Of a DNA stretch of 64,000 nucleotides, positions 3,631 through 63,600 are shown piece by piece. How positions within the stretch are numbered: position 1 is the stretch's first letter; the number at the start of each line of letters is the position of its first letter. A model generated the notes under the pieces. That model had not been told where the DNA came from, searched no databases, and saw nothing but the letters and a program-made list of their open reading frames with translations. Source of the DNA: Rhodocollybia butyracea. Lineage: Eukaryota > Basidiomycota > Agaricomycetes > Agaricales > Omphalotaceae. The DNA lies in assembly GCA_015501585.1 (NCBI GenBank), contig JADNRY010000056.1, positions 219,938-283,937 of the forward strand, read 5' to 3'. The position numbers were made by a program, and so were the translations under genes.

Positions 3631-5283
3631 TTGGAGTGGAAGTTGAAAGAAGCGCTTGTTACACGCCTCGCGCGCTTATTCAATTTCTATGGATTCACCG
3701 TCATGAAAATACGCATAAATCTAAGCTCCGCGGAACAGGCTCATCTCAAAAACGAACTTCGCTTGGAATTTGGTCCATTCGTGGTTAGCCCAAAGCGAGC
3801 AGAAGAGCTCAAAGAAATACTGGCTTTGGCTGATAAAGATATCGAGGATCATGATTCTGAGGTGGCTCGCCTTCATAGGCAAATCATCGTTGTTCAGGCT
3901 GAAAAACAAAGAGTCGAGATTCAACGGGCCCAGCTATGCTCTTTGCTGTCTCCGATGCGGAAGCTGTCAAACGAGATCTTGCTATATATCTTCCAGTATG
4001 TGTGCGAAGAAAATCTCCTCCAGAGCTACCCATGGTCTTCACACTGGAAGCCTCCCACTGGACTCACATCTCCCGTGATCACTTACCTCCCTACAATGGT
4101 AATCAGTTCAGTATGCTCCCGTTGGCGTACAGTTGTACTGTCGTCACCTAGTTTGTGGGCTAACTTAGTGGTGGAGGTACACCCTGCTACGTCGGACGAA
4201 GCAGAGAACCTCACTGGTTTCATCGATACTGTAACTCGATATCTGGAGAGATCAGGTGATTGGCCGCTGAGGCTTGCACTAAGAACAAGGGGTTATCCTG
4301 GATCAGAGTTCCCTTCCCTCCTCTACCTGATACAGCATACTCGCCGTTGGAAAACTTTCACGTATCATGGGACTTACTCGCTTCCAAAGTGCAAGATACT
4401 GTCCGAGTTGCATTTTCCTTTACTCGCGGAGTTGGATATTCAAAGTACTTTCCACCGGTCGTCTGACATGGGTCGCTTCGAACATGTTCCAAAGCTCTGT
4501 ACACTTGCCACTTCAGAGTTGCCTACATTCAAGGCCTCGTACCATCAACTTCGGCATCTCAATCTTTGGGATAGTACATCAAAATTGGTCGATGTGCTAC
4601 ATAGATGCCCTTCACTCGAATCTCTTGGACTCCATGGAGTGTCGCAGACTATGAGCCAGATGTACATTCCACGTGGCGCAACATCACATCAATTGATATT
4701 GACGTTGGAGAGAATTCAGAGTCGTACCTGAAAACGGTGTTTTTATCAAACGACTTACCTTCCTTGAACATGGTCGTGTTGAATGATTATCATGATCCTT
4801 GGCCGACAGAGACTTTTATTTCATTAATATCTAGGTCCTCTTGTATGATCACCGTGTTCATCCTCCGCCGTATTTATCTCTCTGATTTGGACCTTATCGC
4901 TGTCCTTCGAGTTATGCCTTCTCTACTCCATCTCGAAATTGACGACGACGAATGGCACAGTCCAATCACTTCACGCCTCATCTCGAGCCTAACTCAGCAC
5001 CAATCCACTTCCATCTCCTTGGTTTCAAGCTACATAGTCTTCATATCGTTTCCCGGTTTGATGTTGGGGTATTTGACGACTCTGCATGGTCGAATCACGC
5101 TGGTTTAGACCTGGCTCGGGTCTTTCTGCAACAATGACCATGATGGGGAGGGAGTGCCTACGATCCGTTGTTCTCAAGTTTGAATGGCGAGAGGTTGATG
5201 CGGAAGTTTACAAACCCCTACGGGTTTTAGATAAGGAGGGTTTGCGAGTGGTAGTTGCGGGGACGAATGGAATTCAGGTTTAA
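3631..5283 (+). pseudogene. F-box domain protein, frame broken about three times
   Basis: F-box proteins are substrate adaptors of SCF ubiquitin ligases; Agaricomycetes carry very large families. The N-terminus has a coiled-coil stretch (RLHRQIIVVQAEKQRVEIQR) leading into an F-box-like block, LSNEILLYIFQYVCEE, then the typical VCSRWRTVVLSSPSLW. The C-terminus (5180-5283) reads LRSVVLKFEWREVDAEVYKP, which matches the usual end of this family. The frame changes near 4640 (into VADYEPDVHSTWRNITSIDI), again near 5040 and again near 5090, with no convincing introns at those points. The three frames together give one continuous protein of normal layout, so this is a recently broken gene or one damaged by sequencing indels. 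Leucine-rich-type repeats are not obvious. Confidence 0.72.
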
Positions 5284-27949: not shown

Positions 27950-30900
27950 GAACCTCGCTAATGGATATTAAGGCTAGAGCAACCATAATTTGTGTTCGCG
28001 CTGTGCACCAAAATTTTTATTTCTACTAGCTTTGTATTTCCATGTAGTGTGGGGTGGTCTAAATCTATTTATTCCAAAGTCACTAATAGACAACTCTATG
28101 GTCACGAATTAGGCTTTAACGAAGAAAGGAACTCGTCTACACTACCCATATACGTTGCCCACTCGGACCATCTGTGGAACGGGTAAGTACGCGACGAAGC
28201 ACAGCAGGAGAAGTCTTACCCATCTCCGACAGGAGGAGCTTGCAAGTTACCTACATTTATGCGTCAGTCAACGAACATGATTTCCAGCGCTTGGCGACTC
28301 ACTGGAGTGTCCTGAAAACATTCCAGACGCAATACTAGAGCTTGTATTACTATATAAATCGACCTCCGGACTGGCATTGTTTTCGAACCAGTTCAAACAC
28401 ATGGTCATTACTCAGAGGTACAGGCAGCCGCCCAAGATCCTCTGTATGAAGGGGCAGTCCAAACAAACTATTGTAATCGAGGCATAACTTGATCATGGGC
28501 CGTTGAACTCATTGGCGGGTCAAGAAACTCAGCTTGAGCTGCAGTCTGTGCAGGAGGGTATGAGAAGAGGAAGATTGCTGTGGTAACAAGAAAGAAGGTA
28601 GTGCACTGTTGCTTTGAGAAGCGGGATAGTGCATCTCTGTACGAACTGGGAACAAAAAACCCATTAGATTCGTCAGATTCACTTGCATGCACAGCAGTCG
28701 GTGTCATCGTGTGACGATTCTCGCCCTGGTCCTCCCTTTCGCGTTTTTTGGTCCTTGATCCCAAATTAGAACCAAACTGAACCTCCACTGGCTGAGCAGC
28801 TACTATCTCGATCAGAATATCACTGTTGAAGAACGATTAATTGGGAGACATTGTTCGCGTAAAATCAAAATCAAAAAGGAACATACCGCATTCTTCCTGC
28901 AATCTGATACCTCTTTTCGTATATGCCCAAGATCCTCAGACACCGATACACATCTTCCATCTCTCTCCTCGGATCCATCACCATCCCAAGGCGCTTTCCC
29001 AGCCCACAGGTTCAAAAGAATCATGATCGCAGAGTCGAATATAACCTGGGAAGAGTGACCCATGGGGCTTGGATAATTGTGGGCGTCAGAACTAAAGAGG
29101 CTAGATGCCGAGGGGGGCAAGGGATTAGAAACGAGATCTTTTCTTCTCGAATGGAGATCCAAGACATGTAAAAGCCGAGCGCGCTGCGTTGGCGCATACG
29201 GCGAGAGAAGAATATGACATTCCTGAATAACGTCGCGGTCGTTCTGAGGCCTGCTTTGACCCTGGCTGAATAAAGAGCCTGTGAGGACAAGGTCAGTAAG
29301 CAGTTGCGAGAGAAAAACATCTTTCTTTACCTGTGAACGATCATCTGTATAAAGTAGTATGTGCAGTACAAGGAAGCTGATACTTCAAACAGTAAAGGAT
29401 CTTCCCTGTTAGGGTCCCATCTTACTTGAAGTCTGTCAATCGGGTTTGAAGGAAAGTGATCTCTACGTACGACGATCAGGAACATTATCCACCCATTCGT
29501 TCAGAGCAGAATCCAACTCTTTAACGACTCTTTCATCCCACGATGCTGAAAGGCTAGCTGAATCTCCCACCTCCGGTGGTTTCTTAACGGAATACTAAAA
29601 ATAACAACTATTGGTCAAAAGACTGACGGAAAGAAAGCAAAACTCACCAGATTTTTTTAGCGCGAACGAGAGAATATCCAACAGCTTAAGTTCCGCAATC
29701 CAAAATCCTACCCACGATGGCCTTCCAGGAGGTTGTTTGAATGCTTGTTCGGGATCAGGATGCTCCCCAATACTCGTCGTCGCATTCACTAGGCAAGTCG
29801 AGATCGTAGCTAAACAATCCGATAAAACAATGTCAGCACGTCGGAGGGGAGGATTCAGAATACTCACTCGGCCCGATCTGTAGCCCTCGGCCTTCCCAAA
29901 AAAGCACTCGCAAACACGTCAAGGCATAGCAACGACCAAAATGCTCTCTTCCATAGCTCTTTCTTGACACTGGCTTTGTGCCGAGGAAATGGCGTCGGTG
30001 AGCACCAACGACCTGAGCGTGTCGGATGCCGACGGAAATGAGGGGCCAGCATTGGCTTGGTGAAGGACGTTGTTGAGAGGAACATGACGACGTTCTGTGA
30101 ATCGAGAGGTGTAAGTCTTATGGTCGAGATTGAAACAGCCAGAATAAAGATTTACACAGATTATCTGAACTACATATAACGCGTTTTGTGGTGTTAGTTC
30201 TTGTAATGGAGTGATTTGATTGATATATTTCCATCCTATGGAGTCGAATCGGTTCAAAAGACGATGTATATTGTGAGGATGTATACTTGCCGATACTGTG
30301 GCTTCGCTCCTGTGCAGTGAGATTCGCACCTTCCTCGAGTGTCCTCTCGTCAGACGAAAACCTTGCTCCTAAGGCGCAGACCGACAAAACAAGTTCACCG
30401 AAAGCTCGTTCCCGTTCGTGCAGTCCGGTGTCTATACCGCGCTGAAATGTCGGCTGATGAAGGACAGGCATTAAACCGGAGCGTTTCTGGAAGTGTATCT
30501 CAACGAGAGATGCGAGGAGGTCGGGTGGGGGAAATATCAGCTTCGATGTGGGTTCCAGTTGGGTTGGTAGGTGCTGCCACTGGAGAAATGTGGGTTTACT
30601 AGGAGTAAGGAGAGAGTAGGAATACATACCGGGTAGATATTCCAGAATTCAGCTCTCTTCATCCCGCGTATATGCATATTTGGAGTGTCAAACCCACCAG
30701 TCCCTTCTCCATTCATAATGTCTCTCTCGATCTCGAACCTGAAAGGTGGTGTCTTCGGGCGGCTTGTAGACATACCAGCGTCGTCGTCATATTCTTCCTT
30801 GATTTTCAAGGCGGTTTTCATCAAGGCTACCTGACTAGAATTTCCATAAAAGCTAACGCTTGCACCGATCTGGAGATTCCTGACGATGTCTGTAATGTCT

Positions 30901-32513: not shown

Positions 32514-35500
32514 ACCTCGCTAATGGATATTAAGGCTATTGCAACAATAATTTGTGTCCACGCTGTGCACCAAAATTCTTATTTCTACTAGCTTTGTATT
32601 TCCATGTAATGTCGGGGGAGGTCTAAATCTATTTATTCCAATGACTAATGGACAACTTCACAGTCACGGAGTATGCTTTACCGAAGAAAGGAACTCGTCG
32701 ACACTAGCCATATATGTTGCCCACTCGGACCATCTGTGAAACGGGTAAGTAAGCGACGAAGCGTAACAGGAAGCGCCTTACCCATCTCCAACAGGAGGAG
32801 CTTGCAGTAGACCTGTTCGCATTTTTCGCATCAGTAAACGGAGATGATTTTCCCCGCTTGTTGACTCACTGGAGTGCCCTGAAGATGTTGCAGATGTAAT
32901 ACCTGAGCTTGATCCACCTGAGGTCCAATATGGATCGACCTCCGGACTGGGATTATTTTCGAACCAGTTCAAGACATGGTCATTGCTCAGAGGTACTGGC
33001 AGCCGCCCAAGATCCTCCGTACGAAGGGGTAGTCCAAACAAACTATTGTAATCGAGCATTACTTGATCATTGGCCGTTGAACCCATTGGTGGGTCAAAGA
33101 ACTCAGCTTCAGCTGCAGTCTGCGCTGAAGGGTACGATGAAGATGGTGGAATGGAAGGTGATAAGAAAGAAGGGAGTGCACTGTTGCTTTGAGAAGCGGG
33201 ATAGCGCATCTCTGTATCCTCTCTATCGCGAACTGGGAACAAAAACGCGTTGGCTTCGTCAGATTCACTTGCATGTGCAGTAACCGATGTCGTCGTATGA
33301 CGATTCTCGCCCTGGTCCTCCCTTTCGCGTTTTTTGGATCCTGAGCCCAAATTAAAACCGAACTGAGCCTCCATTGGCTGAGCCGCTATTATCTCGGTCA
33401 AAATATCACTGTTGGAGCAAACCATTGAGAAAATAGGATCAAAATTAGAAAGAAACATACCGCATTCTTCCCGCACTCTGATACCTCTTTTCGTAGATCC
33501 CCAAGATCCTCAAACACCGATAAACATCTTCATCTCCCTCCTCGGATCCATCGTCATCCCGAGGCGTTTGCCAGCCCACAGGTTCAAAAAGGATCATGAT
33601 CGCAGAGTCGAATATGACCTGAGGAGAGTGACCCATGGGGCTTGGATAATTGTGGGCGTCGGAGCTAAAAAGACTAGATGAGGGGGCAAGGGATTAGAAA
33701 CGAGATCTTTTCTTCTCGAATGTAGATCTAAGACATGCAAAGCCGAGCGTGCTGCATTGGCGCATACGGCGAGAGAAGAATATGACATTCCTGAATAACG
33801 TCGTGGTCGTTCTGAGGCCTGCTTTGACTCTGGGTGAATAAAGAGCCTGCGAGGTAAAGTTAGTGAGCAGCTACGAAGAAAAGTGTCCTTTTTGCATCAC
33901 CTGTGAACGATCATTTGGATAAAGTAGTATGTGCAGTACAAGGAGGCTGATGCTTCGAACAGCAAGGGGTCTTCCCTATTAGGATCCCACCTTACTTGAA
34001 GTCCGTCAATCGGGGTTTGAAGGAAAGTGATCTCTACGTACGATGATCAGGAACATTATCCACCCATTCGTTCAGAGCAGAATCCAACTCTTTAACAACT
34101 CTTTCATCCCACGATGCTGAAAGGCTAGCTGAATCTCCCACCTCCGGTGGCTTCTTAACGGAATACTAAAAGAGCGAGATATGATTAAAAGACTGATGGA
34201 AGGAAAGCAAAACTCACCAGGTTCTTTAGTGCGAACGAGAGAACATCCAATAGCTTGAGTTCCTCGATCCAAAATCTTACCCACGATGGCCTTCCAGGAG
34301 GTTGTTTGAATGCCTGCTCGGGATCAGGATGCTCCCAATACTCGTCGTCGCACTCACTGGGCAAGTCAAGATCGTAGCTAAACGACCCGATGAGACAGTG
34401 TCAGTACGTCATATAAGAGGATTCAGTGCGCAACTACTCACTCGGCCCGATCTGTAGCCCTTGGTCTTCCCAAAAACGCACTCGCAAACACGTCGAGGCA
34501 CAGCAACGACCAGAATGCTCTCTTCCATAGCTCCTTCTTGACGCTGGGCTTTGTGCCGAGGAAATGGCGTCGGTGGGCACCGACGACCTGAACGTGCCGG
34601 ATGCCAATGGAAATGAGGGGCCAGCATTGGCTTGGTGAGGACGTTGTTGAGAGAAACATGACAACGTTCTGTGAATTAAGAAATTAAGCAAGTCTTATGG
34701 TCGAACCAGAATAAAGATTTACACAGATTATCTGAACCACATATAACGCGTTTTGTGGCGTTAGTTCTTGCAACGGATTGATTTGATTGAGATATTTCCA
34801 TCCTATGGAGCCGAATCAGTTCGAAAGGCTGTGTACATGTATTGTGAGGATGGATACTTGCCGATACTGTGGCTTCGCTCCTGTGCAGTGAGATTCGCAC
34901 CTTCCTCGGATACCCTCTCATCAGACGAAAACCTTGCTCCTGAGGCGCAGACCGACAAAACAAGTTCACCGAAAGCTCGATCCCGTTCGTGCAGTCCGGC
35001 GTCTAGACCGCGCTGGAATGTCGGCTGATGAAGGATAGGCATTAAACCGGAGCGTTTCTGGAAGTGTGTCTCAACGAGAGATGCCAGGAGGTCGGGTGGG
35101 GGAAATATCAACCTCGATGTGGGTTCCAGTTGGGGTGGTAGGTGCTGCCACTGGGGAAAATTGGGTTTAGTAGGAGTAGAGAGGGAATAGAAAATACATA
35201 CTGGGTAGATTTTCCAGAATTCAGCTCTCTTCTTTCCGCGTATATGCATATTTGGAGTGTCAAACCCATGAGTCCCTTCTCCGTTCATGATGTCTCTCTC
35301 GAGCTCGAAACTCATAGGTGGCGTCTTCGTGCGGCTGGTAAACACACCAGCGTCGTCGTCGTATTCTTCTTTGATTTTCAAGGCGGTTTTCATCAAGGCC
35401 ACTTGACTAGAATTTCCGTAAAAGCTGTCAGTGCTTGCACCGATCTCGATATTCTTGACGAGGTCTGCAATGTCAGCTTCGTTGGGATTGGGTTCGCACA

Positions 35501-36979
35501 GTTGGATTTGGGAAGAGGGCGCCGGAGATCCGGCATGAGTGGGATAGAGGGTTAAGCTTGGGTTGTGGTTGGAATTGGGCAAAGAGTTTTCGCTGGGTAG
35601 TCTATTGGGCGGTGATGAACGGGAATGGGAGGGAAAAGAAGATCTGGATAGAGAGCTGGTGCTCTGACCAACATTTAGCAAAGCCTTTTCCAACGACCTC
35701 GCATATGCTGCGATTTCCCTAAGCGTGCGATTGAGGAGGGTCTTATCGGCTACCGGTGCTTGGTATGACGGTAAGTCTAAGATGGCGGATATCTGGGATT
35801 TTGCAAACGTGAATTTGTCGTCCAGTCCTAGATCGGGTGCGGTCTCCGTCGATGTGACAGCGGTGCTAGTCATACTGATGAAGGTAGTTTTGTTTATCTA
35901 AACAAGGATTGAATCTCTTTGGACCGGTTCGAGGAAAATCGCTGTACCTTCTTGGTACTATGAGTGCATTCAGAGTTCTATATAGCATGGGTCAAGAATT
36001 ATGCGCTACGATAAAATTCATCGACGACCTTACGAAGGCTTTGCAGTTTGTACAAATGTTGTCTGGCATCTTTGAGCTATCACCTGGATGTCAATGAGCT
36101 ATGGAACTTGAAACCCGAACAAACATATCCACATCGAACTGGGTGAAACAAGGCAGCGTTAGATCAACTTGAGCAACACGGATTGTTCTCACTCTTTCGC
36201 TACAAGAAACACAGATTAATTGAAGCAGGATATGGAGAATAATGTACGAACCTGCTTGCACATATCACAAGCACCGTGCAAACGTCTCTTCTTGAACCCT
36301 CCGGGAGGTTCATCGTATAGCTTTGGTTCAAGTGAAGTGCTTTCCATTGATGATTTTCGCTTTACTTGTGCTAGTATTTATACAATCCGGGTAGCGAGGA
36401 GAAGATAAGAATAGTTCCATGTAAATCCTGATCCATCATGTCGATGAGCGCTAGATGACGCGCGTTTCCTGACGGCAGACTTTCTTCTTACAATCATGAT
36501 ATCCCTCGACTTTTATCCGAGTCGCAAAATGGTCTTACGCGTCCAGTACTGGTATCAAGACTAGGGTATATACTCAACCTTGTGGAGTTGCAATAACCCT
36601 AGCCCCGTCTGTAGCGGCCAAATAACGGTTTCCCAGGTGCATCGGTAGACCTCGGAGACTAACGACCTCAACGGAATTTCATCTTATCACTGTTTCTTGA
36701 GTGATTTCCAAATACATATCGCTCAATGTGAACGAATTGAATGAAAGGAACATTTTGAGAAGAAAAAGGACTATAGTTAGCACAAGAGAAAATTGCATGA
36801 GGCGGTGAGCAATAACAAAATGTTCAGTGAAAGAGAAACAACGGGGCCGGAAGGGGGTGGTTGCAAAGTTCCTCCTTACCGAGCTCACGAACTTATCAGA
36901 TAGATGGCTGTAAGTGGCGCTGTATCGCATTAGATTAAGGTACTCTTTCATAATCGAGACGCGCTTACAGTGACTTCTT

Positions 36980-39175: not shown

Positions 39176-42100
39176 ATGGTCGCACAAACTCGACATACAG
39201 GTCAGCCGTCCCCAAAGAAATTGTCTTTTCGCGAAAAAATCGTCACAAAAGGCCAATCCAATGACGCACTGCTAAAAAAGCTCAAAACTTTACACTCGGA
39301 ACTCGCCGAGCTAGACCAGGAGTTTGTCGACGTGAACTCCCTTTCCAATGTTCGCAAAGAACTCGTCAGCAATTCCATCATGCTACACAAGGATCGCGGC
39401 GTAAAAGCTTACGCAGCTTGCTGTATCGCCGATATCCTCAGATTGTACGCGCCAGATGCCCCCTACACCCAGGCCGAGCTACGGGACATATTCCAGTTCT
39501 TCTTTAAACAACTCAGCAACAACCTCAAAGCCTCAGACGTCACCTATTATAACCAGTACTTCCACCTCCTTGAGTCTCTTTCCACTGTCAAGAGTGTCGT
39601 TTTGGTCTGCGATCTTCCAAATGCGGACGACCTCATGCTCGGCATATTTCGCGACCTGTTTGCCCTCGTTCGACGCGATTTACCAAAGAAAATAGAGACT
39701 TTTATGGCCGAAATAATGGTCGCGATAATAGACGAGTCGGCTTCTTTGTCCCCAGAAATGCTTGAGATAATAATGGCCCAGTTTATGGATAAAAGTGCGG
39801 TGCGTAACAACGAAATGTACTCCACTCTATCCGACCTTAACAATCTGTTCCTAGGGTATCGAACAGCCCGCGTATCGTCTCGCCGTAATTGTCTGCAATC
39901 AAACGGCAGACAAACTTCAACGCAACGTAGCCCTCTATTTTACAGACATCATAACATCCAATTCTCAAGAGGAAGATTTCGACGAGATCCGCACCGCACA
40001 CGATCTTATCAAACGTTTACATACGTCCTGTCCTAATCTTCTACCTTCGGTTATCCCTCAGCTAGAAGAAGAACTTCACGCTGATACAACTACTTTGCGC
40101 GCCATTGCCACCCAGGTCCTCGGAGAAATGTTCTCCGATAAAAGTGGCGGAGACCTCGCCAAGAATCATCCCTCGACTTGGAATGCATGGTTAGGCCGTA
40201 AAGTAGACAAGTCGCCTGCTGTTCGCTTGAAATTTGTGGAATCATCAAAAGGGCTCTATTCTGGCTCTCCGGAAATGGTAGAGGCTATCGAAGGTGCGCT
40301 AGGCACCTTTTTCCCTGTATCGTAACTGATCCAACCTTAGCGGCATTCGGCGCAAAACTATTGGATCCTGACGAAAAGATTCGCGCCGCAGTTTGTAAAG
40401 TATATTCTCAACTCGATTACGAGACAGCCATCCACCATGTTTCTGAAGCCCAGTTGAAAGCCGTTGCTGGACGAGTAGCCGATAAGAAAGTACGCTTGGT
40501 CCCCTTCCGCGGTCCTTATCATACTCAATAGTTTCTAGCCTAGCGTCCGTTCTGAAGCTGCCAACAGTTTAGCCAAACTTTATAACCTTGCATATCCCGA
40601 AATGTGAGAGCTTTCTTCCATGTGAAAAATGATTTCACTGACCCTGTTATTCCAGAGAAAACAACGACGTTGTAGCAATCGCAAAGTTTTCTTGGATACC
40701 GGAGGAGCTCCTTCTCACTTCAGGGAACATTTCGGATAGTCGGTGGGCAGCAGCACTTTTGCTTGATAATTTTTTCCTGACGGTGGTATGCAGAGCTGTG
40801 ATTGAACAGGTTGTATCCGACCATATCTTACCCCTTCCTGTATATTCTCCCAATCCGCAGAATGGAAAGGCAGTCGAAGTGGACGAACTGGCTTGGACAG
40901 ATCGTCTGATAAGCGTCATGCGTTTTTTGAGTGAAAAAGGTGTAAATGCTCTAATCACTCTTTCGAACCTGAAACCGATGTAAGTGGCTGCACGATTTTG
41001 CTATTGTGATCGGAGCTCATGTTTATCAGTCGCCCTACTGCCATACAATACTTCATTGACGTCTGTGTTGAGTATAATGTATGTCTTTCATTCATAGCTT
41101 CTTTCTGTAGTATCAACGTCTTCCACAGGGCGGTGTCATTGACAAAAATGAAGAGCTGGTGATACAAAAACTCACAAGAATAATGGAGGTCATATCAGGT
41201 TTGTTCTCCGCCAATGATCATTCGTGTGAGCTAACGGTCGAATAGTCAGCTTCCCGGATTCTGCCAAAATGAAAGAGGATCTCAATGCGTTTGCAAAAGC
41301 CAACGAACCTCGTCTGTACAAGTTACTGCGAACATGTTTAGACGTCGATACCGATCTAAAAGCCTTGGTGAAGGCACAGGTGAGTATCTATGACAGTTCG
41401 AACAGCTCCTCTGACTAACCTCAATCATAGCACGATTTTCTCCGCCGCCTAGAGCAAACATCCTCATCTCTAACTTCCTCAATGACCGCCCTTCTCCAGC
41501 GTGGCTCTCTCCATATCATCAATACCTCATCCATCCCCTCCCTCATAAAACGTGTGCAACGAGCCCAAGGGACCGCCATAACTAAAACCAATCTCGCTGC
41601 GAACCATGCACAAATCATACTCTCGAACGCAGCCAAGTTCTGCCCGGGGTTGTTTAAGCCGCATGTAGATGACTTGATCACCGCTATTGAGGACGGGCAG
41701 AACGATAAGACTGTAGCAGTTGGGTTGCGAGCTTTGGCAAGTGTAGTCAAGTTGGACCCTGCTTTGATGCCCATGGAAAGGTATGTTTCATCTGTCTCAG
41801 TGTTCGTATTTTGCTGACTCCTCAAACCTGCATAGTTCTACGGTGGAAGTCGTTCGAACCCATGCCTTGGGGTCTAATCCCCGGCATTCCAAGTTTGCGG
41901 CACGAACATTTGCTTTTTGCGAAGAGAAAACCGATATCTGCACTGCGATCGTCGAGGTTTGTGTATCTCAAAGAAAAAGTCCTCATGATGTGTGCCAACC
42001 CTTCAACAGACCATCGCTGATAATCTGAAGGATGCTCCAGAAGACCAGTTAGTAGCGCATCTCGTTTCGCTCGCTCAGTTTGCTCGTTTTGTGCCCGATG

Positions 42101-44040
42101 CTTTTGAGCAGAAGAGCGATGTGATAACGGTATTTCTGCTTAAAAGGCTTCTTATGGTTCCGAACTTGCCTCCCGTAAGTTGATCAGCCCGCTTGCAAGG
42201 ATATTTGAATGAATATCCATCCCACAGCTTGATATAGAAGACGATGGCGAAGAGTGGGCGGAAGATGATGAAATATCTAATAATTTAAAAGCAAGGATCG
42301 TTGCATTGAAGGTTCTACGATACCGGACAATATCTCATGCCAACTCGAAAAATGCGGTAGACATTTCGACGCCTGTATTCAGAATGCTGGCTACCATACT
42401 CGATCATGGTGGTTCGTTATCTGGAAATGATGCTGTTGAAGAAGAGTAGGGCCCAGTTGTGTTTCGTATGTGTTATTGCTGATAGGTTCTACTTTTCTAG
42501 CCGTAAAGCTCTGTCTCGAGTTAGGCTACAAGCCGCAGTATCTCTGTTGTATCTTTCCACAGTCCCTGCGTACGCTGACGCAATAGCTCCGAAGTTTGTG
42601 AGACTGGCGTTGACAGTCCAGGTGTGTTCATTTCAGTTATCGTTTACTAGGCTTTCTAATATAGTACATCGTAGGACACATGTTTCAACGTGCGGATAAC
42701 CTTCCTGCAAAAGCTTATGCCAATGTTGTATATGCGCAAACTACCTCCAAAATACCATGTAATATTATTCCTGACCGCGCATGATCCAGAAGAGGATATT
42801 AAACAAATGGTATGCGGATGTTCTAGACATCGTTGGAATATCCGATAACCTTGTGCGTGCGTAGGCTTCAGTGGCAGTCAATGCCCTTATTCGAAAGTTA
42901 TCTCCAGGTGAGTTTCTGAGAATTTCGGTGTATCGCAAACATTGCTGATCATTGTTTTGGTAGAAATGAGGACACAGAACCTCGAACTCATTTTCATCCG
43001 ACTTCTTCACCTCCTCGCACATCATCCCGACTTTGCTACTTCTCAGACTGAGCTTCAAGATATTGCCAAGTAAGCGTCTCAATTCGCACTGGAGGGTAAC
43101 CCATTAAATTTCTGCCCTTGCAGATATGTACAATTATACCTTGAACTAGTCGGATCTGGAGAAACAATTTCTCTGTTGTATCATTTGGCGGGTAAAGGAA
43201 AAACTGTGCGGGATCCAGAGTCGCAGGCGCATAGTGAGGTGGGTGATTTGTGGTCCTTAAGTTGTATTCTATTTCTCATAATCCGAGGCTAGAACCTATA
43301 TGCCATGTGTGAGATGGCCCAGGAGCTTATAAAGCTTCGCGCACACAATAACAACTGGACCATTCCTACGTATCCCGGGAAAGTGAAGCTTCCTCCAGAT
43401 ATACTTCGTCCTCAGCCGAATGCGGAGATTGCGAACAAGGCGAGTGGAGAGTTTCTTGAAAGGGAACTCGATGCTGATGGAATATGAAATAATGTAGATA
43501 TCAAAACAAACTTTTTTACCCTCAGATGCACCTTTATGGCTTGCGGAAGTCACGTCGTCGGCACCCAAGGTTGGATTTTTTTCCTCTTCAAAAAACTGCA
43601 TATTTTTAACGACCTGGCTTAGGAAAAGAAGGAACGGAGACCGCCTGTTAAGCGGAAGGCAGCCACAACGAACGGTCATTCCAAGTGAGTAGAATTTTCT
43701 TTTTCGCTGTGATCGAAGACTCATCATATATCCAGGAGATCGCGCAAAAAGAGAAAGCATGCCGATTCAAGTGATGGAGAGCAATTCGATCATACTGATG
43801 CAACGGACGTGGAGATGTCGGACGCTCCACTTGTGCATACGTCCGATGTGGATGAAGGTGAGGAGTCGAATGGAGAAGAACAACTTGGTCGGGGTGCCCG
43901 CAGTAAAGCAAAGGTATGTGTCTCATATCTCGATACTCTCTGATTTGGATCTGACCTATGCGTGCTACGCTACTTAGGCCAGAGCCAGGAGAAAGTCGAG
44001 AACTTCGAAAAAGGCTAGCTCGCCCTCTTCCGAAGGTTGA
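39176..44040 (+). CDS. PDS5: Sister chromatid cohesion protein Pds5
   Basis: HEAT-repeat regulator of cohesin; it stabilises and, with Wapl, releases cohesin on chromosomes. Starts MVAQTRHTGQPSPKKLSFRE; then DALLKKLKTLHSELAELDQE and LVSNSIMLHKDRGVKAYAAC, CCIADILRLYAPDAPYTQAE, the most conserved Pds5 block. Exon 1 ends at MDKSA (donor GTGCGT near 39799) and joins GIEQPAYRLAVIVCNQTADK. Other exons: LLDPDEKIRAAVCKVYSQLD, FSWIPEELLLTSGNISDSRW-type, DDLITAIEDGQNDKTVAVGL, RVRLQAAVSLLYLSTVPAYA, and a basic C-terminal tail ARARRKSRTSKKASSPSSEG. Around fifteen exons; where the frame seems to stop (TAG near 42448) a donor GTAGGG restores it. C-terminal Lys/Ser-rich tail as in other Pds5 proteins. Confidence 0.95.
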
Positions 44041-60526: not shown

Positions 60527-61106
60527 AGGTTCGGAGTCAAGCCCCTGTGGCTCCGGCCCGGAACGGGTAATCCTTCACAAGAAGGGGGTTGCGGCAAAGT
60601 GTCATGAAAACCAGGAGTCAATCTTACATCGATATCGATTTCATTTTTGCACTAAATCCCTTACTGTAAGAGACAGAACTTGACTTTAGAAGCTACTCTA
60701 AGCAACTGTCTACCATAGATAATATTTAAGTTGGTTTATCTCAATGATATTTAGCAAGTAAGTTGTGTCACTGCAGAAAATCAAGCCTCATAAGAATCAA
60801 CACAGTTTAAATGGTTAAAATGCTTTGATTAAATAATGGGCTGGCATGGGCACTCACCATGGCCTAATCTAACTTTCTGTCCACTTAAAATATTTATTTG
60901 AGTCTTGTGGAAGTATTAAAGTCCTGTAGGAGTTGGCCTGCTTGAAATCATAAACATTGTCACATAGTGTGACAATTGCATCACGCCTGGCCACAGAAAG
61001 GGGTGCGTTGCACTGCTTGTCCCAAATACTCATGGCAGACCCAGAAAAAATTGTATTTGACAACTCTGTATGGGAGGACATATGGAAAGCCAAGTTTGCC
61101 CCAGAA
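60527..61106. other. Stretch left of the LTR element
   Basis: A frame at 60957-61106 (MADPEKIVFDNSVWEDIWKA) is protein-like and is cut by the LTR element. No known family. The remainder shows nothing. Confidence 0.4.
61102..61106. repeat. Target-site duplication, left (CAGAA)
   Basis: CAGAA directly precedes the 5' LTR and is repeated at 62583-62587 after the 3' LTR. Confidence 0.85.
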
Positions 61107-61258
61107 TGTAATGCCTACGGCACGTTCATTACCGTTAGCGCCGATATTACATAATTAGTTCACTCTTATCCTCATACCACATACTCGTTTTGGTCTATTT
61201 CTCTAATAGAACGAGATCTTGCTCATGGTCTGAGGCATTAAGAGTCAGGGCTCTTACA
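61107..61258 (+). repeat. 5' LTR, 152 bp
   Basis: Six substitutions relative to the 3' LTR, each a CpG transition; no length difference. Confidence 0.9.
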
Positions 61259-61301
61259 CTTTTTTGAGCAACCTTGTCCTGAATAGGACTATTACAGCAA
61301 T

Positions 61302-62336
61302 ATGACCACACAACAGCACAACTCAAGCCATGACTCTGTCATGGCTCTGGCTTACTCTTTTCTTTCTCAAATCCTTTCCATGTTCCCTCATGATCCTCTC
61401 TCACACATCTCTGGGATCCTGGACTTCTCCTCCCAGGGAATTCAACAGCTGCTAGTCAACTTTAAGCAGCTCTGGGAACAACATGGTCTTTCAGTGGCTG
61501 GTAGGAATTTGGCAGAGGCAGTGGTGCAGGATTCTACATTAAGATGTTGCTGGGCAGTGAAGGAAGAAGGTTTCCAGGCAGAGGTCTGTTTTCAGATGAT
61601 AGAGTCTATTAAGAGACTGGGAGAAGAGTTTGGGATGGAACTGTCCAAATCTCAAACATCACCTCCTGCTCTGAGTTCTCCATCACCTTTGACCACTCCT
61701 ACTGCCTCATCATCAACTCCCACACTTGCTTCGAATGCGTCAGACACGTTGAAATCATCTCCACATGCTCTGACATTGGTTTCACCATCCAACCCCACTC
61801 CCCCTTCACTTCAACTCCAACCAACCTCAGAGTTTGCACGGGAGGTGGCTGAACTGCGGAAAGCAGGCCAGAAACTTGAAGTATTCATGGATGAACATGT
61901 CATGGGGCTTGAACACACAGCTGAAGCACCGCCAGCTCCTGTTCATCTCTCAAACACTCCAACCGAGTGTACACCTGTGCCTTATGTTGCCCCTGTGACT
62001 GCCGTTCCACCAACAGGCCTTCATAAACGTGTCAAACACAACATGTATGGTGCGTTTGGTTTGCTCTTGCTTCGTTCAAGTCATTGCCCATCCCAATCTG
62101 GTACACTCATGCCATCACCTTCACCCACTGAAACTCCCCATCACCATATTTGTGCTCCCAATCAATGCTCCCATTCATGGCGCTGGAGATCTACTGTCTC
62201 CACTGTGCCACCACCATCTCAATCTGGACTTAGTGTCAGCATCCAGAGAATTCAGCGATTTTCACAGGACACTTTCTCTTCTTCTGCGCTTATGGAAATT
62301 GCCAACATAATACATCATACATTACCTATTAGATGA
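61302..62336 (+). CDS. Single ORF of the LTR element (gag-like by position), 344 residues
   Basis: Starts 44 bp after the 5' LTR. The N-terminal ~110 residues are helical (LAYSFLSQILSMFPHDPLSH, QGIQQLLVNFKQLWEQHGLS). A Ser/Thr/Pro-rich linker follows (about 125-185), then a short coiled-coil-like helix (FAREVAELRKAGQKLEVFMD). The C-terminal third is Pro/Ser/His-rich with a few Cys, without CCHC knuckle. No similarity recognised to known gag families. The role as a particle protein is inferred only from position and domain layout. Confidence 0.65.
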   Translation: MTTQQHNSSHDSVMALAYSFLSQILSMFPHDPLSHISGILDFSSQGIQQLLVNFKQLWEQHGLSVAGRNLAEAVVQDSTLRCCWAVKEEGFQAEVCFQMIESIKRLGEEFGMELSKSQTSPPALSSPSPLTTPTASSSTPTLASNASDTLKSSPHALTLVSPSNPTPPSLQLQPTSEFAREVAELRKAGQKLEVFMDEHVMGLEHTAEAPPAPVHLSNTPTECTPVPYVAPVTAVPPTGLHKRVKHNMYGAFGLLLLRSSHCPSQSGTLMPSPSPTETPHHHICAPNQCSHSWRWRSTVSTVPPPSQSGLSVSIQRIQRFSQDTFSSSALMEIANIIHHTLPIR

Positions 62337-62430
62337 CTGTATGTTTCTCTTTGTTATGTTTTCCCTTTTCCATCTTTCTCTTTTGTTTTTTTTGGGTAAG
62401 ATGGACCTGTGGGGTCAATCTAGGGGCATG

Positions 62431-62582
62431 TGTAACGCCTACGGCACGTTCATTACCATTAGCACCAATATTACATAATTAGTTCACTCTTATCCTCGTA
62501 CCACATACTCGTTTTGGTCTATTTCTCTAATAGAACAAGATCTTGCTCATGGTCTGAGGCATTAAGAGTCAGGGCTCTTACA
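62431..62582 (+). repeat. 3' LTR, 152 bp
   Basis: Pair of 61107-61258. Flanked on the right by CAGAA. Confidence 0.9.
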
Positions 62583-63600
62583 CAGAATGAGGACCTTCCC
62601 CTCAAAAAAATATCATATTGGAAGAAGCTTCATCTTTTATTCTCCCTTATGGTTTTTCTCAACCTCAGTATTGCAAATTTTATTGATTTCCTCTTCACTA
62701 GTGCTTCCTCCGTCCGACAGAAGGCAGGAAAATATCTGGAATATTGTCCTCATGAACCCGCCAATTTGCACCAGCTAAGCTTTGGAGTCTCTGGTATAAG
62801 AATTCCAAAGCTTGCACCCATCTACACACTATTGTTCAACAATGTGCATCTGAAATTGTACTCAACAAGTGTAATAGCATTGTTAGCAACCCTTCTTTGA
62901 AGGTCCAAGTCAAGGGACTTACTGCTTCTTCTATCCACTCACTCCTAGCACCCCGTATGCTGTACAAAAAATACTGTGGTCTAGCTCCATTCACTACTGG
63001 GGTACTACATGTATTCACAGCATCGCCCAATCATTACCAGAGGCGAAAGCAGACCAAGGAGACAGAGATGGATTCAGATGTTGAGATGGAGGACTTACCA
63101 TCGCCAGAAGAGACTCTTGGTCTTGGAGATACTTTTATAGCTCCCAAAGAGGGTGAAACTGAGATGCCTACAATGAACACCAGTGAAGCTGTAAGTATCC
63201 ATACATTTTGACTGATATGATACTCATAATTGTTCAGGCTATCACCCTAGTCATTGCAATGCTAGCATTTCTTCAAAACCAGGCCAACAACTTACTCCCC
63301 CTCTTGCTTGGTTTATTCTTCATGATCAATGGTACCAGTACTCGTGTCATGACTATGCTTCATGAAGTTGGTCTCATTGTCTCAACATATACTGTTGAAC
63401 GGCTAAAAGAACAGTTAACATCGTCAGCAACTGAGTTTGCAATTGAACTTATCGCTAGTCCCCACCTCTGGTATATCAACATTTATCTTTGGAAATGGGA
63501 CCAATGACTCACAAACAAGAATGGAATGCCCCATGCAACTAACAGTGCTGTAGTTGGTATTGATGCTAGAGATGTCCACAAGTCCAGGTCTTTACAGGTA
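62583..63600 (+). pseudogene. DUF6589-type protein remnant
   Basis: DUF6589 proteins are multi-copy, element-associated proteins of Agaricomycetes with no known function. One frame (62583-62900) carries NEDLPLKKISYWKKLHLLFS and PHEPANLHQLSFGVSGIRIP. Another (62897-63200) gives EMDSDVEMEDLPSPEETLG and joins by an intron near 63190 to AITLVIAMLAFLQNQANNLL, PLLLGLFFMINGTSTRVMTM, LHEVGLIVSTYTVERLKEQL, the family's core. The expected FDNINIF block is reduced to WYINIYLWKWDQ with a stop at 63507, and HATNSAVVGIDARD follows out to 63570. Frame breaks and the LTR element insertion show it is dead. Confidence 0.72.

Follow-up and report, generated by a model that had tools for sequence, protein, structure and literature searches.

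A long terminal repeat element without pol in Rhodocollybia butyracea carries a conserved orphan protein and a putative self-priming helix

Introduction

How can a long terminal repeat (LTR) element that encodes no polymerase be copied, and why would it keep a protein? The question is raised by a 64,000-nucleotide stretch of the Rhodocollybia butyracea genome (assembly GCA_015501585.1, contig JADNRY010000056.1, positions 219,938 to 283,937 of the forward strand; hereafter the window), which contains at 61107-62582 (+ strand) a complete, non-autonomous LTR element of 1,476 bp with a single open reading frame (ORF). A preliminary description had recognized a complete LTR element with the target duplication CAGAA and a 344-codon ORF but no polymerase domain, and this outline is confirmed here by coordinates, LTR match and flanks. 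We propose that the element is probably self-primed and similar in its way of life to TR-GAG elements, being moved by a polymerase (pol) supplied in trans and carrying an orphan, Gag-like protein.

A paper on Agaricales genomes, which names strain AH 40177, presents R. butyracea as a forest-litter decomposer (PMC8480192). We searched a 95.6 Mb assembly of the species and read about 300 kb of it as sequence, the copies read being mostly those closest to the window copy. Contigs and copies are cited by our own C and L numbers.

Results

A complete LTR element inserted into a repeated target

The two LTRs of the window element are 96% identical, with transitions at all six differences, and enclose an interior of 1,172 bp that is mostly ORF. 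A Pfam search detected no protease, reverse transcriptase or integrase domain in this single interior ORF. When joined without the element, the flanks match three other places (240/241 bases, 81-82% identity); since the match runs end to end, the window element is an insertion. The target itself is repeated: the joined flanks match nine places, including the two flanks of the window element itself, so that the insertion site belongs to a small family of repeated targets. Its features are as follows.

61102-61106, no strand: left target-site duplication CAGAA, 5 bp, from the sequence and the empty paralogous sites
61107-61258, + strand: 5' LTR, 152 bp, TGTAA...TTACA
61211-61215, + strand: ACGAG in the LTR, proposed as the outer segment of the self-primer, pairing with 61273-61277
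61219-61225, + strand: TTGCTCA in the LTR, proposed as the inner segment of the self-primer, pairing with 61265-61271 and covarying in lineages A, B and C
61265-61271, + strand: leader segment TGAGCAA, proposed self-primer binding site, 6 nt from the LTR
61273-61277, + strand: leader segment CTTGT, outer partner of 61211-61215, from the sequence
61274-61300, + strand: conserved 5' leader TTGTCCTGAATAGGACTATTACAGCAA, ending 1 base upstream of the ORF
61277-61280 (TCCT) and 61285-61288 (AGGA), + strand: putative leader hairpin, stem letters the same in 12 of 12 aligned A, B and C rows
61302-62336, + strand: ORF of the orphan protein, 344 codons plus stop
61320-61652, + strand: predicted helical N-terminal domain, residues 7-117, with the lowest dN/dS of the regions
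61653-62015, + strand: Pro/Ser/Thr-rich, fast-evolving linker with a low-confidence helix at residues 176-203, boundaries approximate
62145-62174, + strand: HxCx4CxH motif, residues 282-291, invariant in the four-protein alignment and within the conserved basic C-terminal tail
62403-62430, + strand: conserved GGACCTGTGGGGTCAATCT and polypurine tract (AGGGGCATG), adjoining the 3' LTR
62431-62582, + strand: 3' LTR, 152 bp
62583-62587, no strand: right target-site duplication CAGAA, 5 bp

An LTR segment covaries with the leader in three lineages

No TGG-type site for the 3' end of a transfer RNA (tRNA) lies directly after the 5' LTR. In the lineage of the window copy (A), the LTR segment TTGCTCA is complementary to the leader segment TGAGCAA. 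We compared this pairing with two further lineages of the same genome. In lineage B the LTRs measure about 153 bp, the duplication is again 5 bp long (CCTCC at C773), and the ORF has about 383 codons; its protein is 42-58% identical to that of A over matched stretches and about 42% overall (tblastn). Among the first seven B copies read, three have no internal stop and four have one; of the further copies, L082 and L083 are decayed and the one on C1277 was read at its start. Lineage C, found on C301, C1082 and C1138, has its own LTR and leader and an ORF that is broken where read; it is known from the 5' end alone, where the reading of one copy covers under 300 bases downstream of the leader start. 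A search with the C LTR and leader returned these three copies and three further LTR pieces. By their sequences, A and B are two lineages of one pol-less plan, and C has the same LTR-leader-ORF start. On C630, two C-type LTR pieces lie 14.1 kb apart (29405-29516 and 43504-43615, + strand), neither of them followed by the C leader; they may bound a single larger element or represent solo LTRs.

In lineage B, the LTR carries ATAGCTTA and the leader TAAGCTAT, at the same aligned place as in A, and the corresponding segments of lineage C are ATTGCTTA and TAAGCAAT. The LTR segment of C had been forecast beforehand as TTGCTT upstream of ATGG, and was then read as ATTGCTTATGG in all three C copies. 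Across A, B and C there are seven pairs, two of which covary; in 2000 shuffles of the LTR columns these two values were never reached together, and seven pairs irrespective of covariation came up once (gap-free columns, one copy per lineage, C LTR partial). In an alignment of 12 rows, 11 of them distinct, 92% of the cells of the eight-pair inner helix are paired, compared with 21.6-33.0% in versions slid by up to three columns, and the number of cells paired, the number of cells changed on both sides and the covariation score each lie above all 500 shuffles. The outer part, ACGAG with CTTGT, could lengthen the helix and was left uncounted in the covariation statistics; copies with ATGAG or ACAAG in its place could still pair through wobble or A-U pairs.

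The alignments thus show a covarying LTR-leader helix in A, B and C, which by analogy points to self-primed reverse transcription of the Tf1/sushi kind. In Tf1, the pairing of the first 11 RNA bases with the primer site is given as the defining self-priming arrangement (PMC7175516), and self-priming has also been suggested in the Tcn1 clade and in copia elements of the TAR type (PMC6317226). For a spikemoss element of the Tcn1 clade, another study reports evidence of neither tRNA priming nor self-priming (PMC2864245).

The same leader could also be read as the site of a half-tRNA primer, the element then being of copia type with a leader that pairs with the anticodon arm of tRNA-Leu, as in fungal Helenus. 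Most fungal Helenus families are described as having 5-bp duplications and primer sites complementary to a tRNA anticodon loop (PMC10886601), the leaders of A, B and C have complements readable as CTCAA or CTTAA loops, and one of the three places in the genome that match such an arm (C1227:123133-123149) has exactly the hairpin length. However, a half-tRNA primer does not account for the joint change of LTR segment and leader across A, B and C, and B and C would share one anticodon but differ in their stems. Matches to the arm pattern were as many as in the reversed control (3 versus 3), and the C1227 place is absent among the matches listed in a tRNA search (best 63 of 4704 candidates). We regard half-tRNA priming as improbable. 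A different role for the helix, in RNA packaging or dimerization, is part of a further alternative in which the ORF product is an accessory factor acting in trans, for example a chromatin-binding or anti-silencing protein; this combination strikes us as quite improbable.

The ORF is conserved between lineages and drifts almost neutrally within lineage A

We next consider whether the protein is maintained. Between A and B (L073), the ratio of nonsynonymous to synonymous substitution rates (dN/dS) is 0.39 in the coding frame, compared with 0.96 and 1.2 in the other forward frames and 1.0, 0.46 and 1.24 in the reverse frames, the value of 0.46 belonging to the frame that shares its third positions with the coding frame. 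Differences fall at 127, 102 and 176 of 340 first, second and third codon positions, an excess at the third. By region, dN/dS is 0.21 in the N-terminal domain, 0.64 in the linker and 0.35 in the C-terminal part. Silent sites are near saturation (dS about 1.15), and at a stop-making share of 2-3.5% the roughly 405 differences would be expected to create an estimated 10-14 stops, yet both frames are open. Because the coding-frame dN/dS is 0.39 and the expected stops are missing, the comparison indicates that selection kept the protein in the source lineages of both A and B.

Within lineage A, the ratio of nonsynonymous to synonymous variants is about 0.7 of the neutral value. A contrast between singletons and shared variants was expected and none was found (0.72 versus 0.70, Fisher p 0.73; after excluding columns of three or more alleles and carriers whose codon contained a gap). 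The preliminary description had taken an intact ORF despite decay as a sign of recent activity or selection. Both now have evidence, selection through the comparison of A with B; little can be read from the intact ORF of any one copy, because drift among recent copies is nearly neutral.

Silent differences between A and B are scarcer in the C-terminal part than elsewhere in the ORF (proportion of synonymous differences, pS, 0.46 versus 0.67 and 0.63), and an overlapping open frame of 93 codons lies over the ORF in another frame at 62029-62310. RNA constraint or the overlapping frame are possible reasons for the lower pS.

A large family with recently active copies

A search with the LTR start (first 27 bases, up to three mismatches) found 241 places in the genome, 126 forward and 115 reverse, while the reversed control found none, a number well in excess of chance. 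The 5' leader TTGTCCTGNATAGGACTATTACAGCAA occurs at 108 places with up to three mismatches. A six-frame search with the ORF gave at least 127 matches (best 117 of 193 candidates scored); among the matches listed, 42 span codons 1-344 without a stop, and all are A- or B-type by identity, most being known from match scores alone.

We could read 38 distinct A copies beyond 1 kb of ORF. They were chosen as the matches scoring highest against the window copy, which over-represents intact copies. Both LTRs are present in 35 of the 38 by a scripted test, identical 5-bp flanks in 30 of these 35, and 29 distinct duplications occur among the 30. The LTR and ORF searches thus bear out the prediction of a family with several full-length copies and differing duplications. 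Seven of the 35 two-LTR copies have identical LTRs, and 80 of the 85 LTR-LTR differences are transitions. The A family has therefore been recently active, given the copies with identical LTRs, and decays by transitions. The ORF is truncated or frameshifted in nine of the 38 copies; a crude test of the ORF end flagged 11, of which L018 and L023 are full-length with an altered end.

Two arrangements depart from this plan. At C872:279014-281800 (L003, L015, L049), LTR-interior-LTR-LTR-interior-LTR stand in tandem, the middle consisting of an LTR piece that ends at position 134 followed by a full LTR, and the ORF of the first interior is cut off. Copies at C1130:15454-17114 and C428:567944-569279 and on C820, C952, C510 and C654 have about 0.6-1 kb of extra sequence after the leader, ahead of the first ORF codon matched, which may represent nested insertions or a longer form.

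An orphan protein with a predicted helical domain and a basic tail

The ORF protein matched nothing above chance in Pfam, NCBIfam or the PDB. In a database of about 5.8 billion proteins it had four matches (7348 and 7991 candidates scored), two of them gene models of R. butyracea and the other two JGI metagenome proteins with 93% (P0001) and 43% (P0003) identity to the window protein. One of the gene models, P0004, is identical to the translation read from C279, the B copy L073. The other, P0002 (BDP27DRAFT_1422111), is a 588-residue model that runs from the element ORF into an unrelated stretch; the ORF has in this way entered the gene annotation of R. butyracea, with exon joining as a possible route.

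An alignment of four proteins, the window protein included, shows a shared N-terminal block, followed by a Pro/Ser/Thr linker of variable sequence and a tail that is conserved. The tail contains invariant residues (H282-C284-C289-H291 in the window protein) whose spacing, HxCx4CxH, suggests a zinc-binding motif, and it is basic in three proteins (net charge +6 and isoelectric point 10.3 in the window protein, +14 and 11.9 in P0003, +9 and 10.0 in P0004). The N-terminal domain of the window protein is acidic, with a net charge of -6. A CCHC zinc knuckle (CX2CX4HX4C) is absent from the protein sequence; in one study, only some fungal gypsy gags were found to have a CCHC motif (PMC2864245). For both the window protein and P0003, AlphaFold gives helices at about residues 7-26, 44-61, 63-89 and 93-118, with a block-wise predicted local distance difference test (pLDDT) score of about 65-88 in the N-terminal domain except for a dip near 30-40; each input alignment had four rows, and the models are tentative. 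A low-confidence helix at 176-203 is predicted in the linker. The helical N terminus, the Pro/Ser linker and the missing CCHC knuckle of the preliminary description therefore stand, its coiled-coil-like helix corresponds only to this low-confidence segment, and the HxCx4CxH motif is added.

The identity of the protein had been left between a new type of gag and a captured host protein. A search of Pfam gag families gave no match at E up to 10. A new type of gag remains the likeliest, as yet unproven, reading. A host protein carried as cargo would fit the lack of similarity to known gag families. However, the genome search listed no match distinct from A and B (best 117 of 193 candidates, most matches being known from scores alone), and the database matches are element-type proteins only. 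Capture of a host protein thus has no support so far among the matches listed or scored, and we regard it as highly improbable.

Search for a helper element

The genome offers possible helpers, with at least 151 matches to RVT_1, many of them in long open frames (best 150 of 513 candidates scored). LTR-, leader- and ORF-based searches showed no pol-bearing copy among the matches listed, most of whose places were unread. The polypurine-LTR junction of B matched eight places, six known B copies and two decayed ones. The leader start with a non-G base matched 14, comprising nine known B copies, the B copy on C1277, the three C copies on C301, C1082 and C1138, and one on C787 that was left unassigned. 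Inspection by eye revealed no RVT_1 match between LTR starts on the same strand up to 20 kb apart (100 of the 241 LTR starts and the best 150 of 513 RVT_1 candidates). A larger autonomous element with a matching LTR, which the preliminary description had suggested looking for, was thus not found among the places listed by LTR, junction, leader or ORF.

These searches bear on the possibility that the element arose by decay from the ordinary gag-pol type. The ORF would then be a fast-evolving standard gag whose autonomous parent exists or existed, and only the deletion would be new. Fungal gags are stated to be hard to identify through sequence profiles (PMC3248453), an Arabidopsis TR-GAG element is described as closely similar to a potentially autonomous relative (PMC8704663), the R. 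butyracea genome is rich in reverse transcriptases, and lineage C could be longer than the stretch of under 300 bases read beyond its LTR. Against this, A and B share the same pol-less plan although their proteins are only 42-48% identical, and the six-frame search returned A- and B-type matches only among those listed. The database search matched only four proteins, but a fused gag-pol would exceed its length limit. On balance we find an ordinary gag unlikely.

Elsewhere in the window lie host genes for a PDS5-like cohesin protein (39176-40036, + strand), a fungal transcription factor domain (34803-35873, - strand) and an F-box-like protein below Pfam's cut-off (3631-4731, + strand).

Discussion

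Self-priming with borrowed enzymes, which we consider the probable explanation, would proceed as follows. The RNA would start inside the LTR, near ACGAG/TTGCTCA, and its 5' end would fold back on the leader just past the LTR and, after cleavage, prime minus-strand synthesis. Reverse transcriptase and integrase would be supplied in trans by a Ty3/gypsy helper, probably Tf1/sushi- or Tcn1-like; self-priming has also been proposed for some copia lineages (TAR/Houba), and the superfamily of the helper is therefore not fixed. The ORF protein would package the RNA, its helical N-terminal domain serving in assembly and its basic HxCx4CxH tail in RNA binding. Its retention would reflect a need for it in the source lineages, with no such constraint on the decay of new copies.

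Several results weigh against this explanation. The LTR, leader and ORF searches found no helper with a matching LTR or leader. The protein has no Gag similarity detectable in sequence searches, its N-terminal domain resembles only common helical bundles and has no significant Foldseek match, and nearly everything beyond that domain has a pLDDT below 50. Recent selection within A is weak or absent. Copies with a broken ORF also move, as illustrated by L053, which has identical LTRs and a perfect duplication and yet a 13-base deletion in the tail of the ORF. The protein therefore need not originate from the same copy, and individual copies are not policed: the protein can probably act in trans, or is not always required. 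As for the helix, the number of pairs changed on both sides (276 of 500) and of further pair types (499 of 500) do not go beyond shuffles, the inner helix of A contains a C-C mismatch at one of its eight positions, single-sequence folding shows the inner pairing without its being exceptional (z -0.15 for A, -1.79 for B), and three lineages, one of them known from its 5' end only, are few for covariation.

A more far-reaching version of self-priming with borrowed enzymes is that the element has long carried a dedicated packaging protein unrelated to retroviral-type Gag, with a four-helix domain and a basic tail of HCCH type. We hold this to be possible and rather doubtful; if true, an RNA element would keep its own particle or RNA chaperone and borrow only the polymerase.

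LTR elements without enzymes are usually seen as empty passengers, and A and B, without pol, kept one protein to near saturation of dS. This raises the testable question of which one protein an LTR element must itself supply when the rest can be borrowed. The LTR-leader pairing is new relative to the preliminary description. As a handle at the RNA level, the covarying helix predicts a self-primed helper and can be used to search for it, and it would extend self-priming to a miniature, pol-less element. In the open-access literature, with most subscription journals outside the search, we found neither an account of a comparable fungal element nor one of a self-primed terminal-repeat retrotransposon in miniature (TRIM).

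Among known systems, plant TR-GAG elements are similar in having two LTRs, one ORF and no pol, and in moving without enzymes of their own (PMC8704663). The TR-GAG element of that account differs in having a recognizable GAG and a similar autonomous relative, neither of which was found for the R. butyracea ORF, and the R. butyracea element is a fungal one of 1.48 kb with a self-priming signature. The element behaves as a TR-GAG would, but we do not class it as one, given that neither a recognizable GAG domain nor an autonomous relative was found.

TRIMs, including the fungal Helenus, resemble the element in their short LTRs, 5-bp duplications and inferred reliance on an autonomous helper, but they are described as shorter than 1000 bp and free of mobilization proteins, in contrast to 1,476 bp and a conserved ORF here (PMC10886601). 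Helenus (TRIMp3) is further portrayed there as carrying a tRNA-like sequence in its LTR and using tRNA primers (PMC10886601). In the window copy, Rfam gave no tRNA match at E up to 10 over 60900-62800, and ARAGORN found no tRNA in the whole window. Three sub-threshold Rfam matches in 60900-62800, none inside an LTR, were taken as chance. Judged on length, ORF and LTR, the element is neither a strict TRIM nor a Helenus, no tRNA-like LTR having been found.

Tf1/sushi elements and Tcn1-like chromoviruses share with it an LTR-derived 5' RNA segment complementary to the leader just after the LTR (PMC7175516, PMC6317226, PMC2864245). Both groups differ in encoding gag-pol, whereas the R. butyracea element has no pol and an inner helix of 7-8 bp with a 5-bp outer part; the Tf1 primer is specified as the first 11 RNA bases (PMC7175516), while the RNA start is here predicted from sequence only. 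Despite its priming signature, the element is not placed in the Tf1/sushi clade, because it has no pol. Finally, bivalve TRIMs without a primer-binding site are likewise small and have no conventional primer site, and self-priming was raised for them as an analogy; no mechanism could be offered for them, and the main text mentions no ORF or open reading frame (PMC6934838). In the R. butyracea element, by comparison, the pairing covaries across three lineages.
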